From NCBI GenBank assembly GCA_033816765.1, contig CM066291.1:4340001-4404000 (forward strand): 64,000 nucleotides of DNA, in the 5' to 3' direction. Made by a program: the position numbers and the translations under genes. Below, in pieces: positions 16,955 to 47,773 of the stretch. How positions within the stretch are numbered: the first letter of the stretch is position 1; every line of letters begins with the position of its first letter. The notes beneath the pieces were generated by a model. That model was not told the DNA's origin. It made no database searches and was given only the letters and a program-made list of their open reading frames with translations. The DNA comes from Nothopassalora personata. Its lineage: Eukaryota; Ascomycota; Dothideomycetes; Mycosphaerellales; Mycosphaerellaceae.

Positions 16955-19730
<2,776 letters not shown>

Positions 19731-31204: not shown

Positions 31205-32818
31205 ATGAAGCTTCCATGGCAGGACGAGAAGCAGCCATCGCTGGCGGCATCATCACTGGAACCAGCGCCAGGCAATGAATACGTGACTCACCCGGCGGAA
31301 AATGGCTACGACGAGGACCTTTACGTGCAATGCCCGCCACACACCACCGAGCGCAAGCTGGTGACCAAGATAGACTGTCGCGTCATTCCCTTCTTGTGCG
31401 TCCTTTACCTACTGGCCTTTTTGGATCGAGTCAACATCGCCAATGCGAATGTAGCTGGTCTCTCGAGGGAGCTTGGCCTGGAGAACCACGAGTACAATGT
31501 TGCGCTTGTGATTTTCTTCGTGCCATACATCCTCTTCGAGATCCCTAGCAACATCCTGCTCAAGAAGTTCAAGCCCAATGTCTGGCTTAGCTTGAACATG
31601 TTCTTGTTCGGCTTTACTACCATCATGCAGGTGAGTGCTTGGTATCTGTGCACTGTATTACATATGACCGACTCGTTTCACAGGGAGTCGTCAACAATTA
31701 CTCCGGTCTTCTTGCAACCAGATTTTTCCTCGGCCTCTTCGAGACCGGCATGTTTCCAGGTTGCTTCTACCTCATCGGCATGTGGTATCGGAGACATGAA
31801 GCACAGAAGCGCTACACCTTTTTCTTCAGCTCTACCACTCTGGCTGGCGCTTTTGGCGGTCTCCTCGCTGCAGCGATCACCAAGATGGATGGTGTGGCGA
31901 ACTATGCGGGCTGGAGATGGATGTGAGTCATCTCTCGTGAACTAATACGCAGGACACTGACGCCCATCCAGCTTCATACTCGAAGGCCTGTTAACAGTCG
32001 TGGTCTCGTTCGCCTTCTTCTTTCTAATCCCAAGCTTCCCTGAGGAGGCGAAGTGGCTCCGCCAGGACGAGAAAGCGTACGTCGCTGCTCGGCTACACAT
32101 AGACCAGGGCAAGTCAGCAGTCGAGCGCTCCATCGGCCTCAAAGACGTGGGTCAGGTCTTCAAGGACTACAAAGTCGTCGTTGCGGGCTTCATGTACTTC
32201 GGCCTCATTGTGCCAGCCTATGGCTACGCCTACTTCGCTCCGGGCATCATCCAGACTTACGGCTACAGCCCGGTTCAAACACAACTGCACTCCGTCCCAC
32301 CATGGGCCGCCGCGTTTGCGTGGGCGATGATACTGGCCGCAGTCTCGGATGCAGCAAGACATCGCTTCGCGTTTGCAGTGTTCAGCATTTGTGTGGGCAT
32401 CGCAGGCTTCGCCATTCTGATCTCGGTTCACGATAACAACACCGTACAGTATGCCGCGCTCTTTCTGGTCACCATGGGCACCTATGGAGCTATGCCGATT
32501 ATCGTCTGTTGGTTCAACATGAATCTGGGCGGGCATCATCGTCGGTCAGTTGGTAGCGCTTGGCAAGTCGGCTTTGGTAACATTGGCGGCATTATCGCTG
32601 TCTTCGCGTTTCTGCCAGATGACAAGCCGAAGTATATCCCTGGATACTCGATTTGCATTGCTTTCACGATTTTGAGCATTATCGCTTGCATTATCTACGG
32701 TTTTGCATGCTGGAATGAGAACAGGCAGCGGGAGAAGATGGCCCATGACATTGGCTTGACCGAGTCTGAGAAGACCGAGCTCGGCGATAAGTCTCCAGAC
32801 TATAGGTATCTGCTCTAG
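31205..32818 (+). CDS. MFS permease, Dal5/TNA1 (anion:cation symporter) family
   Basis: Plasma-membrane symporter of the family that imports allantoate, nicotinate, pantothenate and similar organic anions in yeasts. Exons 31205-31630, 31684-31922 and 31972-32818, 503 aa. Family landmarks: KLVTKIDCRVIPFLCVLYLLAFLDRVNIANANVAGL (TM1), YNVALVIFFVPYILFEIPSNILLKK (TM2), LGLFETGMFPGCFYLIGMWYRRHEAQKR, GWRWIFILEG (restored across intron 2) and FPEEAKWL. The C-terminus is short and charged. The introns are 53 and 49 nt. The exact substrate is not predictable. The next gene downstream, a HET-domain gene, is on the same strand. Confidence 0.93.
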
Positions 32819-42297: not shown

Positions 42298-43059
42298 CTA
42301 ATACGCCTTCGTCTCCTGCCTTCCCAACATCTCCACAAACTTATCCCCAAGCGCAGCCGCGGCGAGCGGGTTGCCTCCACTCACTACCTCCCTATCCGCC
42401 GTTATACTTCCCGCCTTCTCTCCAAGGCCCTCTATCATCTCAGCGCCGGCCTCTCTCAACTGACTCTCCACTTTCGGGATTGCACCACCCAGAGCCGTCT
42501 CCATAATTTTCTCCTCCTGGTCCGACCAGCTTGTGATCTTGTACCCTTTATACGCAAAGCCTCCACTTCCGGCCTTCGCAGTCGATAGGAAAGCGTAAGG
42601 GCCGTGACAGATCGCAGCAGTTGGCTTTTGCCTTTCGTGGAAATGCCATAGGATCTTGCCGAGCGCTGGGTTATCGCCTAGATCGTTGAGAGGTGCGTGC
42701 CCACCAGGTATCAACACACCGGAAAAGGTCTCAAGTTCGTCATCGTTGATCTCGCTGAACTTTCTGGGGCGGGAGAAGCCGTTCTCTTTCTTCATCCGCT
42801 CGACGACTTCGTTCTCACGGCGGCGCTCGTAGAAGTTGCCGGCAAATGCTAAGAGAGACTCGCTGATGGGATCTGGCTTTGGTTCTTTTCCCTCGGGGGA
42901 GGCGAAGGTTACTTCGTAGCCTGCGTCGAGGAGGCGATCGAGTGGTTTGACGAGTTCCATGAGGAAGTAGCCGGAGGGTTGCTGGACTGTTTGGCCGGCC
43001 TTTTCCATGGGGAAGGACTCTGCATCACTAAGAACGACGAGGACTTTCTTCGATGGCAT
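42298..43059 (-). CDS. DJ-1/PfpI family protein (HSP31-like)
   Basis: Class I glutamine-amidotransferase-like fold, 253 aa from Met 43059 (MPSKKVLVVLSDAESFPM). Family members are glyoxalase III-type or chaperone-like stress proteins. The nucleophile Cys is in the elbow TAAICHGPYAFL, preceded by the acidic-sheet motif GVLIPGGHAPLNDLGDNPALGKILWHFHE. The C-terminal part KIMETALGGAIPKVESQLREAGAEM with REVVSGGNPLAAAALGDKFVEML is the usual substrate-pocket edge. The frame stays open upstream for another 146 codons to 43497, with a basic Ser/Arg/Thr-rich stretch just before Met 43059 that resembles a mitochondrial presequence. I keep the short start because the fold begins there. Confidence 0.9.
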   Translation of the reverse strand: MPSKKVLVVLSDAESFPMEKAGQTVQQPSGYFLMELVKPLDRLLDAGYEVTFASPEGKEPKPDPISESLLAFAGNFYERRRENEVVERMKKENGFSRPRKFSEINDDELETFSGVLIPGGHAPLNDLGDNPALGKILWHFHERQKPTAAICHGPYAFLSTAKAGSGGFAYKGYKITSWSDQEEKIMETALGGAIPKVESQLREAGAEMIEGLGEKAGSITADREVVSGGNPLAAAALGDKFVEMLGRQETKAY

Positions 43060-43374
43060 TTTAGGCTGCGCTGAGGTGGAGAGCGAGTTTGCGGTGATCG
43101 CCAAATTGCGACTCCTCTGGTTTGATGAAGGTAGTGAGTTTCTGGTGCGGTAAGTGCGCGTGTGTGCTGAACGTGGCAACAAGGTTGTTGAGATGAATTG
43201 CCTGCGGTCTGATATTGTAATTTGCTGGACAAGAAACTTGGTTCTTCTTGTGGCGATGCGGCGAACATTCGTGGAATCATGAGCACATAATGCTGTTGGA
43301 TAGGTCTTACGTTGTGCGTGCAACATCCTGACGTAGCTCGGAATCAGTTCGGCTGTGCTCTGCAGCATTTCGGC

Positions 43375-43600
43375 AGCCTCCCCAAGAGCCATCGACAAAA
43401 GTGGTGTGCGCCTGTACATGAACACGACTGCTCCTTGATCACCAGGATAGCCGTAACGCTGCGCAGAGAGAGAGAGAGAGCTTGTCGAATTGAGCATTCA
43501 CTGTGTCGAAGGTGCTCGGGGCGCTTCACACAGCTTGAAGTCACTACCGTAATTCGTGGCGCTGATGGCCCTCTCTTCGGTCGTGAGCCCTCGCCCGATC
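43375..43600. repeat. diverged dispersed duplicate, copy 1
   Basis: Resembles 48365-48605. Shared stretches include CTCCTTGATCACCA/CTCTTGATCACCA and GTGCTCGGGGCGCTTCAC/GTGCTCGGAGCACTTCAC, and in translation LITRIAVTLR versus LITTIAAPQLR and LCRRCSGRFTQLE versus MCRRCSEHFTELE. Identity looks around two thirds by eye. The origin is unknown. Confidence 0.45.
43465..43480. repeat. (AG)8 microsatellite
   Basis: Eight uninterrupted AG dinucleotides inside the dispersed duplicate. It falls in the upstream open frame of the DJ-1 gene. Confidence 0.85.
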
Positions 43601-44983: not shown

Positions 44984-44990
44984 TATATAT
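44984..44990 (+). promoter_or_regulatory. TATA-like element upstream of the tRNA gene
   Basis: TATATAT, 31-37 bases before the first tRNA nucleotide. Upstream TATA elements support Pol III tRNA transcription in some fungi such as fission yeast, and could matter here because the internal B box is split. Confidence 0.5.
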
Positions 44991-45045
44991 TTGTTCAAAG
45001 GATCATTCATGCATCAATCCGGTGAGATGGCCGAGCGGTCTAAGG

Positions 45046-45099
45046 GTACGCTATCCATGACGGAACCTAGAGCTTGACATCATCTAACCCACATCATAG
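45046..45099 (+). other. GT-AG intron in the tRNA D stem
   Basis: 54 nt, donor GTACGC, branch site CTAAC at 45084-45088, acceptor CATAG. Removal joins GGTCTAAGG to CGCCACG, which is the normal fungal tRNA-Leu D-arm/anticodon-stem sequence. Confidence 0.8.
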
Positions 45100-45112
45100 C
45101 GCCACGTTAAGG

Positions 45113-45170
45113 CTCCCAGGTCTTGACAGGCAACTGTCGAATACCACGTCAGCTTCAAGCTGATTTATTG
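45113..45170 (+). other. canonical anticodon-loop (37/38) tRNA intron
   Basis: 58 nt, starts right after G37 and ends before C38, with no GT-AG ends. It contains TCTTGA, able to pair with the anticodon loop, as tRNA-endonuclease introns do. A CAGCTTCAAGCTG hairpin lies near its 3' end. Confidence 0.75.
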
Positions 45171-45193
45171 CCGTGGTCCGAAAGGGCGTGGGT

Positions 45194-45244
45194 GTATGTT
45201 CAACGACATGTTGATTCAAGTTTAACTTGACTGATCGATTCTAG
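45194..45244 (+). other. GT-AG intron in the tRNA T loop, splitting box B
   Basis: 51 nt, donor GTATGT (perfect consensus), branch site CTGAT at 45231-45235, acceptor TTCTAG. It interrupts the box B promoter GGGTTCGAATCC after GGGT. A weak box-B-like GATTCAAGTTT lies inside the intron at about 45213. Confidence 0.8.
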
Positions 45245-45257
45245 TCGAATCCCACTC

Positions 45258-45313
45258 GTAAGTCTTGTAGCTGTCGTACCAAATCTTGAACGATTTCTAA
45301 CATGTTACTCTAG
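45258..45313 (+). other. GT-AG intron in the tRNA acceptor stem
   Basis: 56 nt, donor GTAAGT (perfect consensus), branch site CTAAC at 45297-45301, acceptor CTCTAG. Removal joins CCCACTC to TCATCA, completing the acceptor stem and discriminator base. Confidence 0.78.
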
Positions 45314-45342
45314 TCATCAACATTCAGTTCATAAGAACTTTC

Positions 45343-45348
45343 TTTTTT
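45343..45348 (+). terminator. Pol III T6 terminator
   Basis: A run of six T, 24 bases downstream of the tRNA discriminator, the expected distance and form for RNA polymerase III termination. Confidence 0.65.
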
Positions 45349-46044: not shown

Positions 46045-46701
46045 TTACACCACACTATCTGCCTTGATGTCAAACATGACCGGCCTAGTGCTCTTGAAAG
46101 ATTCCCTCTCGTCCAGCTTCATGAAGTACTTCTCCAACTCCGGATACTTCTGCCTCCACCCATCTATCGCACCATTGAAGTCGACGAGTCCCACCGCACA
46201 CACCACAGCAATATCCGCAATGGTCAGTTCATCGCCAAACAAGTAGTCCCCCTTCCTGGCTCTCGCAAGCTCATCGAATGCCTTGAACCCGCCCTGGTAC
46301 TTCCTCTCCTGCCTCTCCCTCCAACTCTGGCTCTGCTTCGCTTTCTCTCGCGCTTTCTCGAAGAATGCCAGCACCACTGCATCCATTACGCCCTCGCCGA
46401 GCACTTGAACTTGCTTCAATCGCAGGTCGGTGTCCAGGTCGCCCGTGATGAGCTTTGGACCTCGCGAGGCATACTTCTGCACGATGTAGTCTTGAATGTG
46501 TGCGCTGTCGTAGATGGGTTCGCGACCATCATCGAAGACAATCACTGGTAGCTTCTCGAGGGGATTGTATCTTGGCGTCTCCGTGTCGCTGTGCCAGGGA
46601 ATCTCGCTTGAGAGCTCGAACTCTATGCCTTTTTCAATCATCGCTACGCGGTTGATTCGTGCATAAGGCGATGGCGTCGCGCTGATCAGTCGAAGGCTCA
46701 T
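46045..46701 (-). CDS. glutathione S-transferase
   Basis: 218-aa single-exon cytosolic GST. The thioredoxin-like N-domain begins MSLRLISATPSPYARINRVAMIEKGIEFELSS, with the Ser/Tyr-Pro region where the catalytic residue sits. It includes the cis-Pro motif NPLEKLPVIVFDDG and the glutathione-binding PIYDSAHIQDYI (Asp-Ser pair). The all-helical C-domain shows GDELTIADIAVVCAVGLVDF, the N-capping/hydrophobic-staple motif. The start at 46701 is preferred over 46761, whose extra codons are a His/Thr run from the leader. It most resembles bacterial YibF-like and fungal GstB-type enzymes that detoxify electrophiles. The endogenous substrate is unknown. Confidence 0.9.
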   Translation of the reverse strand: MSLRLISATPSPYARINRVAMIEKGIEFELSSEIPWHSDTETPRYNPLEKLPVIVFDDGREPIYDSAHIQDYIVQKYASRGPKLITGDLDTDLRLKQVQVLGEGVMDAVVLAFFEKAREKAKQSQSWRERQERKYQGGFKAFDELARARKGDYLFGDELTIADIAVVCAVGLVDFNGAIDGWRQKYPELEKYFMKLDERESFKSTRPVMFDIKADSVV

Positions 46702-47773
46702 GATTGCCGTGTGTGTGTGTGTGTTCTTGGATGATAGTGTTGCGAAATGATGGGGACGCAAAGGTTCACGGAGATAACTTTCACAATATACATATGCCTA
46801 TCTTTTGCTGCAAATCGCAGACGTCAGAGGAAAGGTTCCAGCCTGGAGGGGTGAGTTAGTGGAGCAGGTACGCATGGTACGGTACCGCGTACACGGCTGT
46901 TCTGCCATTCCAGATCAGCGGCGTGATCTAGGAAGATAGGAACAGGTGGTAGCCACTCGAGGTGCTGCAGTCTCGCCCGGTCCAACATTGCAGGAAGATG
47001 AACGATGCTTCTTTATTAGGGCAAACGTATCGTGACATGGCATTCTACAAACCGGATGCGAGTCACGTTGATGCGAAGAGAGATAGGTAGACCGCAGGAC
47101 CTCGTACAAGCCTGAAAATCTGATCCGTGCGAAAGATGTCCTGGCATGTTCTTCAATGGAGGCCCTACAACTCCAAGGGGAGACGACAAGACAGATACAG
47201 TTCTACCCGGTCTGCAGCACTTTGCGCGCTTGATTCTGGTCCTGGACGGCGAAGAAGGCCCCTGAAACAAGCAGAACGAGGCGGTCGGGGATCCTGATAG
47301 GCGATGAAGTCTGTTGAAGCTCCTAATCATCGTTGTGGTTGGAACGTGATCAATAGAGCTAACCCATGTTGGCTTGCGACACCAGCGCCAACGGTAGCAT
47401 CCGAGACTCGACCATTCTCGAGATACGATCGGTCGCGACTTGGTCCAGCATCGTGCGCAAAGAAAACAAGCACATCGATGAGTCTTCATCAAGCATAACA
47501 TTTTCAGCGACGCGTTGATCAATACTCCTTGTCCACTGCCATGGCATTTTCGACTTCCTGCCGCCCGGCTGACGATCTTGGCTGTCAGCATGGGTGTTCC
47601 TGTGCAACTCGTCACGATAGCATAACAAACAATGCCACGTCGTGGGCGCTTGGTAGGTATACAGATTATCCATTAATATAGCCCTCAACGCCATTCATCG
47701 CCGTTGCAGTGCAATCATCAATTCCATGCGGAGCTAACCCTCTCAACCACACCATCATCTACGCGCCAACGAG
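46702..47773. other. intergenic with possible coding remnants on minus strand
   Basis: Short minus-strand stretches look coding (for example SSPIRIPDRLVLLVSGAFFAVQDQ near 47220-47300 and VMLDEDSSMCLFSLRTMLDQ near 47480), but they are separated by stops and no family is recognised. They could be a decayed gene. Confidence 0.25.

Follow-up and report, generated by a model that had tools for sequence, protein, structure and literature searches.

Spliceosomal-type introns interrupt nuclear tRNA genes of Nothopassalora personata

Textbooks place the introns of eukaryotic nuclear tRNA genes at position 37/38 and assign their removal to a protein endonuclease. A locus in the stretch of 64,000 nucleotides analysed here (the window; positions 4340001–4404000 of contig C5, 6.0 Mb) raises the question of whether such a gene can also be interrupted by introns of the kind removed by the spliceosome. 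The first-pass annotation had read the locus as a tRNA-Leu(AAG) gene assembled from five exon pieces of 25, 13, 23, 13, and 6 nt, once one 37/38 intron and three GT-AG introns, 54, 51, and 56 nt long, are removed.

The locus was analysed with a parser that models the acceptor, D, anticodon, variable, and T arms of class I or class II tRNAs, and that may skip GT-AG introns having a plausible donor and branch site, plus one 37/38 intron. Within limits of 40–90 nt for the length of a GT-AG intron and 6–34 nt for the distance of the branch A from its 3′ end, length and branch distance are not imposed, and donor and branch consensus are partly demanded; the donor limit was loosened for one locus (L092, donor GTAGAG). 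For the window region the parser yields a single solution, a class II cloverleaf with anticodon AAG, comprising the following elements together with two candidate transcription signals:

44984..44990, plus strand: candidate TATA box, TATATAT, with the mature 5′ end 37–31 nt downstream
45021..45319, plus strand: Leu(AAG) tRNA gene with three GT-AG introns and a 58-nt 37/38 intron (parser)
45021..45045, plus strand: exon 1, 25 nt, acceptor 5′ strand and D arm, A box unbroken (parser)
45046..45099, plus strand: GT-AG intron 1, 54 nt, in the D stem; GTACGC, CTAAC, TAG (parser)
45100..45112, plus strand: exon 2, 13 nt, anticodon AAG and anticodon stem 5′ strand (parser)
45113..45170, plus strand: tRNA intron at the canonical 37/38 position, 58 nt (parser)
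45171..45193, plus strand: exon 3, 23 nt, anticodon stem 3′ strand, variable arm, T stem 5′ strand, and T-loop base 1 (parser)
45194..45244, plus strand: GT-AG intron 2, 51 nt, within the T loop; GTATGT, TAG (parser)
45245..45257, plus strand: exon 4, 13 nt, T loop, T stem 3′ strand, and first part of the acceptor 3′ strand (parser)
45258..45313, plus strand: GT-AG intron 3, 56 nt, in the acceptor 3′ strand; GTAAGT, CTAAC, TAG (parser)
45314..45319, plus strand: exon 5, 5 nt plus discriminator A (parser)
45343..45348, plus strand: candidate Pol III terminator, TTTTTT, with the discriminator 24 nt upstream

All five exon pieces of the first-pass annotation are present at the positions given, the parser's choice among GT-AG introns of 42–85 nt is identical to them, and the three GT-AG introns and the 37/38 intron are recovered as that single solution. 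ARAGORN, given the spliced sequence, likewise reports Leu(aag). On the unspliced DNA, ARAGORN in its bacterial setting finds no tRNA at the locus, and Rfam finds none at its gathering score and none between 44900 and 45450 even at E up to 10, so that the gene is invisible to both programs. The gene is flanked by long open reading frames (42298–43497 and 46045–46797). Elsewhere, the window encodes a DJ-1-type protein whose closest named relative, from Fulvia fulva, is 89% identical over 80% of the query, and whose top-ranked match is 78% identical over the full query.

At a score of at least 26, the gene at 45021–45319 is the sole parser match on both strands of the 64-kb window, and no match at this score occurs in ten Markov-1 imitations of it, of which a single strand was parsed in each case. 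Replacement of the splice dinucleotides by eight other pairs leaves none of 17 interrupted tRNA loci parsed, including those found elsewhere in the genome as described below; a tRNA-Tyr gene without GT-AG introns (L099) is parsed under all eight pairs, as expected. Applied to both strands of 68 genome loci (205,684 bases, with some overlap) at a score of at least 24, the parser matches tRNAs only, including two in L118, on the apparently mitochondrial contig C17.

The introns had also been likened to those of protein genes in the same window, and four introns located there by frame restoration provide a reference:

18697..18747, plus strand: intron of a HECT-type E3 ligase gene, 51 nt; GTACGT, CTAAC, CAG
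19406..19460, plus strand: second intron of the HECT-type E3 ligase gene, 55 nt, the best of several frame-keeping candidates; GTAAGC, CTAAC, CAG
31631..31683, plus strand: intron of a transporter gene, 53 nt; GTGAGT, a weaker branch word ATGAC, CAG
31923..31971, plus strand: second intron of the transporter gene, 49 nt; GTGAGT, CTGAC, CAG

The first of these was placed by restoring the frame toward words that we take to be characteristic of the protein family. The likeness holds: the four introns are 49–55 nt long and their signals resemble those of the tRNA-gene introns.

The interruption of tRNA genes by GT-AG introns occurs across the genome and extends beyond the single gene noted at first. 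In the genome (54.5 Mb, 40 contigs), tRNA genes were sought by short patterns, which do not amount to a census, with reversed patterns as controls:

TGGCCGAGYGGT, exact: 19 places (control 13), of which 4 parse
GGTTCGAATCC, exact: 15 places (control 8), of which 5 parse
TAGCTCAGNNGGTNGAGC, exact: none; with one mismatch: 16 places (control 6), comprising four Lys and two Tyr genes, one place on contig C17, three repeat copies, and six places without a parse
TRGTNTAGTGGTTANNA, exact: 1 place (control 1), a tRNA-Asp gene
GGTTCRAVYCC, exact: 261 places (control 235); among the matches listed (100 of 261), 20 further stretches picked by T-loop word, of which 3 parse
Interrupted T-loop pattern: 5 places (control 0), including both Leu(AAG) genes, a tRNA-Val(UAC) gene, and one place without a parse

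One of the two Tyr genes of the third list is also in the second. Altogether 19 nuclear tRNA genes were found (Leu AAG, two genes, and Leu CAG, UAA, and CAA; Lys CUU, four genes; Tyr, two genes; Val CAC and UAC; Gln UUG; Ser UGA; Pro CGG; Asp; Arg UCG; and Asn), and 18 of the 19 carry one to five GT-AG introns, the exception being the Tyr gene L099. Since patterns for intact boxes would be expected to favour intact genes, we think that the interrupted share is hardly overstated; the exception is Val(UAC), a gene detected by its intron. Two Leu genes (L035 and L100) were assigned to class II over alternative parses scoring 0.2 and 0.06 higher. Six tRNA-like or pattern-matching loci (L043, L126, L130, L131, L132, and L142) have no parse even at looser limits; four of them (L130, L131, L132, and L043) are tRNA-like and contain a B-box-like word, and L130 and L131 look mutually related.

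ARAGORN provides a separate view of the same set. In raw DNA it finds three of the 19 genes (the Tyr gene L099, an Asp gene, and a third under a wrong name); with the GT-AG introns removed it finds all 19, with the expected anticodon in 14; and with both kinds of intron removed it gives the expected anticodon in 19/19. The five genes for which the anticodon is wrong or absent while the 37/38 intron is retained are L009, L029, L112, L109, and L129. All 19 genes contain a 37/38 intron, of 8–58 nt; the presence of such introns in every nuclear tRNA gene found seems unusually complete.

The sequences flanking the genes suggest transcription by Pol III. A run of T residues is the usual Pol III stop; a run of at least four lies within 50 nt downstream of all 19 genes versus 8.2% of random window stretches, a run of at least five in 16/19 versus 1.5%, and a TATAW element lies within 90 nt upstream of 11/19 versus 5.5%, the controls in each case being random stretches of the whole window and not restricted to intergenic DNA. 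It is the downstream T runs and the upstream TATAW elements on which the suggestion rests. The window gene itself does not have the contiguous internal A and B boxes of a standard type 2 Pol III promoter, its B box being split by GT-AG intron 2, and 13/19 genes have a split A or B box. These split boxes, and the variable distance of TATAW, mostly −35 to −79, would fit RNA polymerase II making the precursors as capped RNAs, a variant that is compatible with spliceosomal removal of the introns. We consider it unlikely in view of the T runs and of the U6 RNA, a Pol III product that is spliced in some fungi. The preference for Pol III over Pol II is nevertheless a separate and weaker step than the claim for the spliceosome.

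The GT-AG introns of the tRNA genes, 45 in all, are 49–58 nt long (mean 53). GTNNG is present in 43, YAG in 40, and CTRAY in 41 (CTRAY being partly selected by the parser), and the branch A lies 9–13 nt from the 3′ end in 44/45, a distance that was not imposed. GT and AG ends in 45/45 follow from the construction of the parser, and the real test of them is the substitution of dinucleotides, which abolishes 17/17 interrupted parses. These features bear on the possibility that the tRNA splicing endonuclease cuts the extra introns at non-canonical sites, the GT-AG ends being coincidence. The enzyme has its normal substrate, the 37/38 intron, in 19/19 genes, and a review (PMC4090602) describes tRNA genes with multiple non-canonical introns from archaea, Cyanidioschyzon merolae, and nucleomorphs; but a GT-AG placement is possible for every one of the 45 introns, with lengths and branch A distances like those of the local protein-gene introns, none of the eight alternative dinucleotide pairs gives a parse of the interrupted genes, and the 37/38 introns differ in having a spread of 8 to 58 nt, so that we regard cutting by the endonuclease as very improbable.

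Exon size counts against removal by the spliceosome. The parses, if they hold, imply very short exons, namely 5 nt between two GT-AG introns in a Lys gene (L103), 3 nt comprising acceptor-stem bases 1–3 in a Val gene (L140), and 3 nt in the Leu(CAA) gene (L100), and exons of 3–5 nt would be hard for a spliceosome.

Bulk intron gain through introner-like elements is known in the Mycosphaerellaceae. The introns described here share with those elements the fungal family and the gain in bulk; unlike them, they form no near-identical family. Specifically, in an all-against-all comparison of 43 tRNA introns the mean identity is 56% and the best non-corresponding pair reaches 70.7%, and a single mobile intron family, or introner-like copies, was rejected as their source.

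Paralogous genes reveal what is conserved. With the window locus as nucleotide query, a single further region was recovered. It is a second Leu(AAG) gene, on contig C7, whose five GT-AG introns measure 54, 54, 54, 56, and 51 nt and whose 37/38 intron measures 32 nt. The mature sequences of the two genes are identical (80/80). Two intron sites are common to both, and four introns lie at private sites (one in the window gene and three in the C7 gene); window intron 2 is 80% identical to the C7 intron at the same site, and window intron 3 is 65% identical in alignment to its counterpart. The four Lys(CUU) genes (L103, L109, L110, and L114), on four contigs, likewise specify one identical 73-nt tRNA, with introns that differ in number, sequence, and position by one base. 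Their introns at corresponding sites are 48.5–65% identical in alignment, close to the 56 ± 3.7 between introns of different genes, and their junctions can lie one base apart (45/46, 50/51, 60/61) with the product unchanged. The paralogues, which have identical products and diverged introns, show that selection maintains the spliced product, whereas the sequence, the number, and the precise position of the introns are not kept.

Several further resemblances accompany these genes. A short palindromic stretch, AGTTCATNAGAACT, lies between the tRNA and the T run (window 45326–45339) and is common to both Leu(AAG) genes; AACAT is present from the discriminator onward in the Leu AAG, CAG, and UAA genes; and a G2-U71 acceptor wobble is common to the Leu AAG, CAG, and CAA genes (L009, L024, L035, and L100). 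In all four Lys(CUU) genes the anticodon stem contains a U-U mismatch and the discriminator is U, which is odd for tRNA-Lys. This oddity, and the choice of parse for L035 and L100, count against reading the genes as functional.

A contiguous Leu(AAG) copy, which could have supplied the cell in place of the window gene, was not found in searches of the genome with exon 1, the B box, and the mature sequence, the empty mature-sequence result by itself showing nothing. The other Leu(AAG) gene is itself interrupted, at partly different sites, with the same 80-nt product. Within the reach of a single genome, the condition for refutation set by the first-pass annotation thus turned out in favour of its reading. 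Besides these two, no AAG gene was found, and the Leu codons CTT and CTC make up 147 of 308 in eight open-reading-frame stretches of the window. That the loci are unused pseudogenes struck by introns or transposons, with intact tRNA genes elsewhere supplying the cell, could appeal to a pattern-based search of one genome (with GGTTCRAVYCC covered at 100 of its 261 places, among the matches listed) and to the supposition in PMC4090602 that short D- or T-arm insertions in eukaryotic tRNA genes mark pseudogenes, but is extremely unlikely given the two Leu and four Lys paralogues, whose identical products despite diverged introns do not fit relaxed selection, the result for contiguous Leu(AAG), and the single nuclear tRNA gene without GT-AG introns among the places examined from the A-box and B-box patterns.

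The introns do not extend to all Pol III genes. Seventeen 5S rRNA matches above the cut-off are contiguous. Of two U6 snRNA copies (L087 1472–1693, C6, match 4370284–4370383; L086, C3:3902167), one has a standard core and apparently contains about three GT-AG introns, of 51, 53, and 54 nt, and the other is more diverged and contiguous. Invasion of every Pol III gene is ruled out by the 5S matches and the contiguous U6 copy, and together with the Tyr gene L099 these show that the invasion is not total.

A genome search with the Rfam tRNA model (RF00005), in which 63 of 2063 candidates were scored, gave a different population of loci. None of the 19 tRNA genes is among the 63. Of 48 matches examined, three are on contig C17 and look mitochondrial, and 45 belong to one tRNA-like repeat family (GGCTAGGTAGCTYAGTGGTAGAGCG...; for example L049, L055, and L066), whose copies have flanks in common and of which L054 is the most diverged; these 45 nuclear matches were rejected as tRNA genes by a similarity check. 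The remaining 15 of the 63 have bit scores equal to those of examined copies. Such repeats could inflate the tRNA counts given by standard programs. For Passalora sequoiae, of the same family, 81 tRNAs predicted by MAKER are reported (PMC7640444); either the interrupted condition may be confined to one lineage, or counts such as this one may include tRNA-like repeats. As ARAGORN misses 16 of the 19 genes in raw DNA and 0/19 are among the 63 scored Rfam matches, other genomes with strangely few tRNA genes should be re-examined.

Taken together, the loci are very probably functional tRNA genes whose GT-AG introns are removed by the spliceosome, and the first reading of the window locus, as a real tRNA-Leu(AAG) gene in need of both spliceosome and tRNA endonuclease, is supported, with spliceosomal removal deduced from sequence. 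We propose that Pol III, probably aided by an upstream TATA element, would synthesize a precursor ending in the T run; help from the TATA element is proposed because so many A or B boxes are split. The spliceosome would excise the GT-AG introns in the nucleus, and the tRNA body would fold only after their removal. RNase P, RNase Z, the Sen endonuclease, and ligase would then complete the tRNA from the folded body, with removal of the 37/38 intron. These enzymes recognise the folded tRNA body, and we place removal of the GT-AG introns before that of the 37/38 intron because such a body would be absent before GT-AG splicing.

Some elements of this arrangement have precedents. Some fungal U6 snRNA and rRNA genes contain spliceosomal introns, U6 being a Pol III gene, and the tRNA genes resemble them in having mRNA-type GT-AG introns in non-coding transcripts. 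The difference is that the interrupted genes here specify nuclear tRNAs, that as many as five introns fall within one RNA of 72–82 nt, and that enzymatic splicing at 37/38 is needed in addition. Canonical eukaryotic 37/38 introns are likewise present in 19/19 genes here; unlike in canonical tRNA genes, the 37/38 intron is one of two kinds of intron per gene.

Non-canonical introns of eukaryotic tRNA genes are treated in PMC4090602 as rare, and outside nucleomorphs and a red alga D- and T-arm insertions are taken there as probable signs of a pseudogene; the introns of the red alga (C. merolae) are tied to the tRNA endonuclease, and the splicing of the 3–24-nt nucleomorph introns is called unknown. 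As in archaea, C. merolae, and nucleomorphs, going by the review, the genes described here contain several introns per gene, in the D and T arms, beside the canonical intron; unlike the C. merolae and nucleomorph introns as portrayed there, the introns are 49–58 nt long with GT, CTRAY, and AG signals. The string "spliceosom" is absent from this review, and the retrieved passages of seven further articles (PMC6461891, PMC4494063, PMC13130702, PMC10122357, PMC11782384, PMC12730881, and PMC13149111) do not describe a spliceosomal intron in a nuclear tRNA gene. Among the papers listed by our search of the full-text literature, outside which lie most subscription journals and all preprints, none reports a spliceosomal intron in a nuclear tRNA gene, in line with the first-pass annotation, which knew of none. 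Nor did we find a report of one tRNA for which the mRNA-splicing machine and the tRNA-splicing enzymes are both needed.

For the organism, we think it likely that spliceosomal introns have invaded almost all of the nuclear tRNA set, that translation depends on the spliceosome, that two unrelated splicing machines act in series on each precursor, and that the internal Pol III promoter has often been destroyed. If true, tRNA processing would depend obligatorily on the spliceosome. The finding bears on the spliceosomal definition of exons of 3–13 nt, on Pol III initiation with split internal boxes and the order of the steps of tRNA maturation, and on the spread of introns through essential genes.
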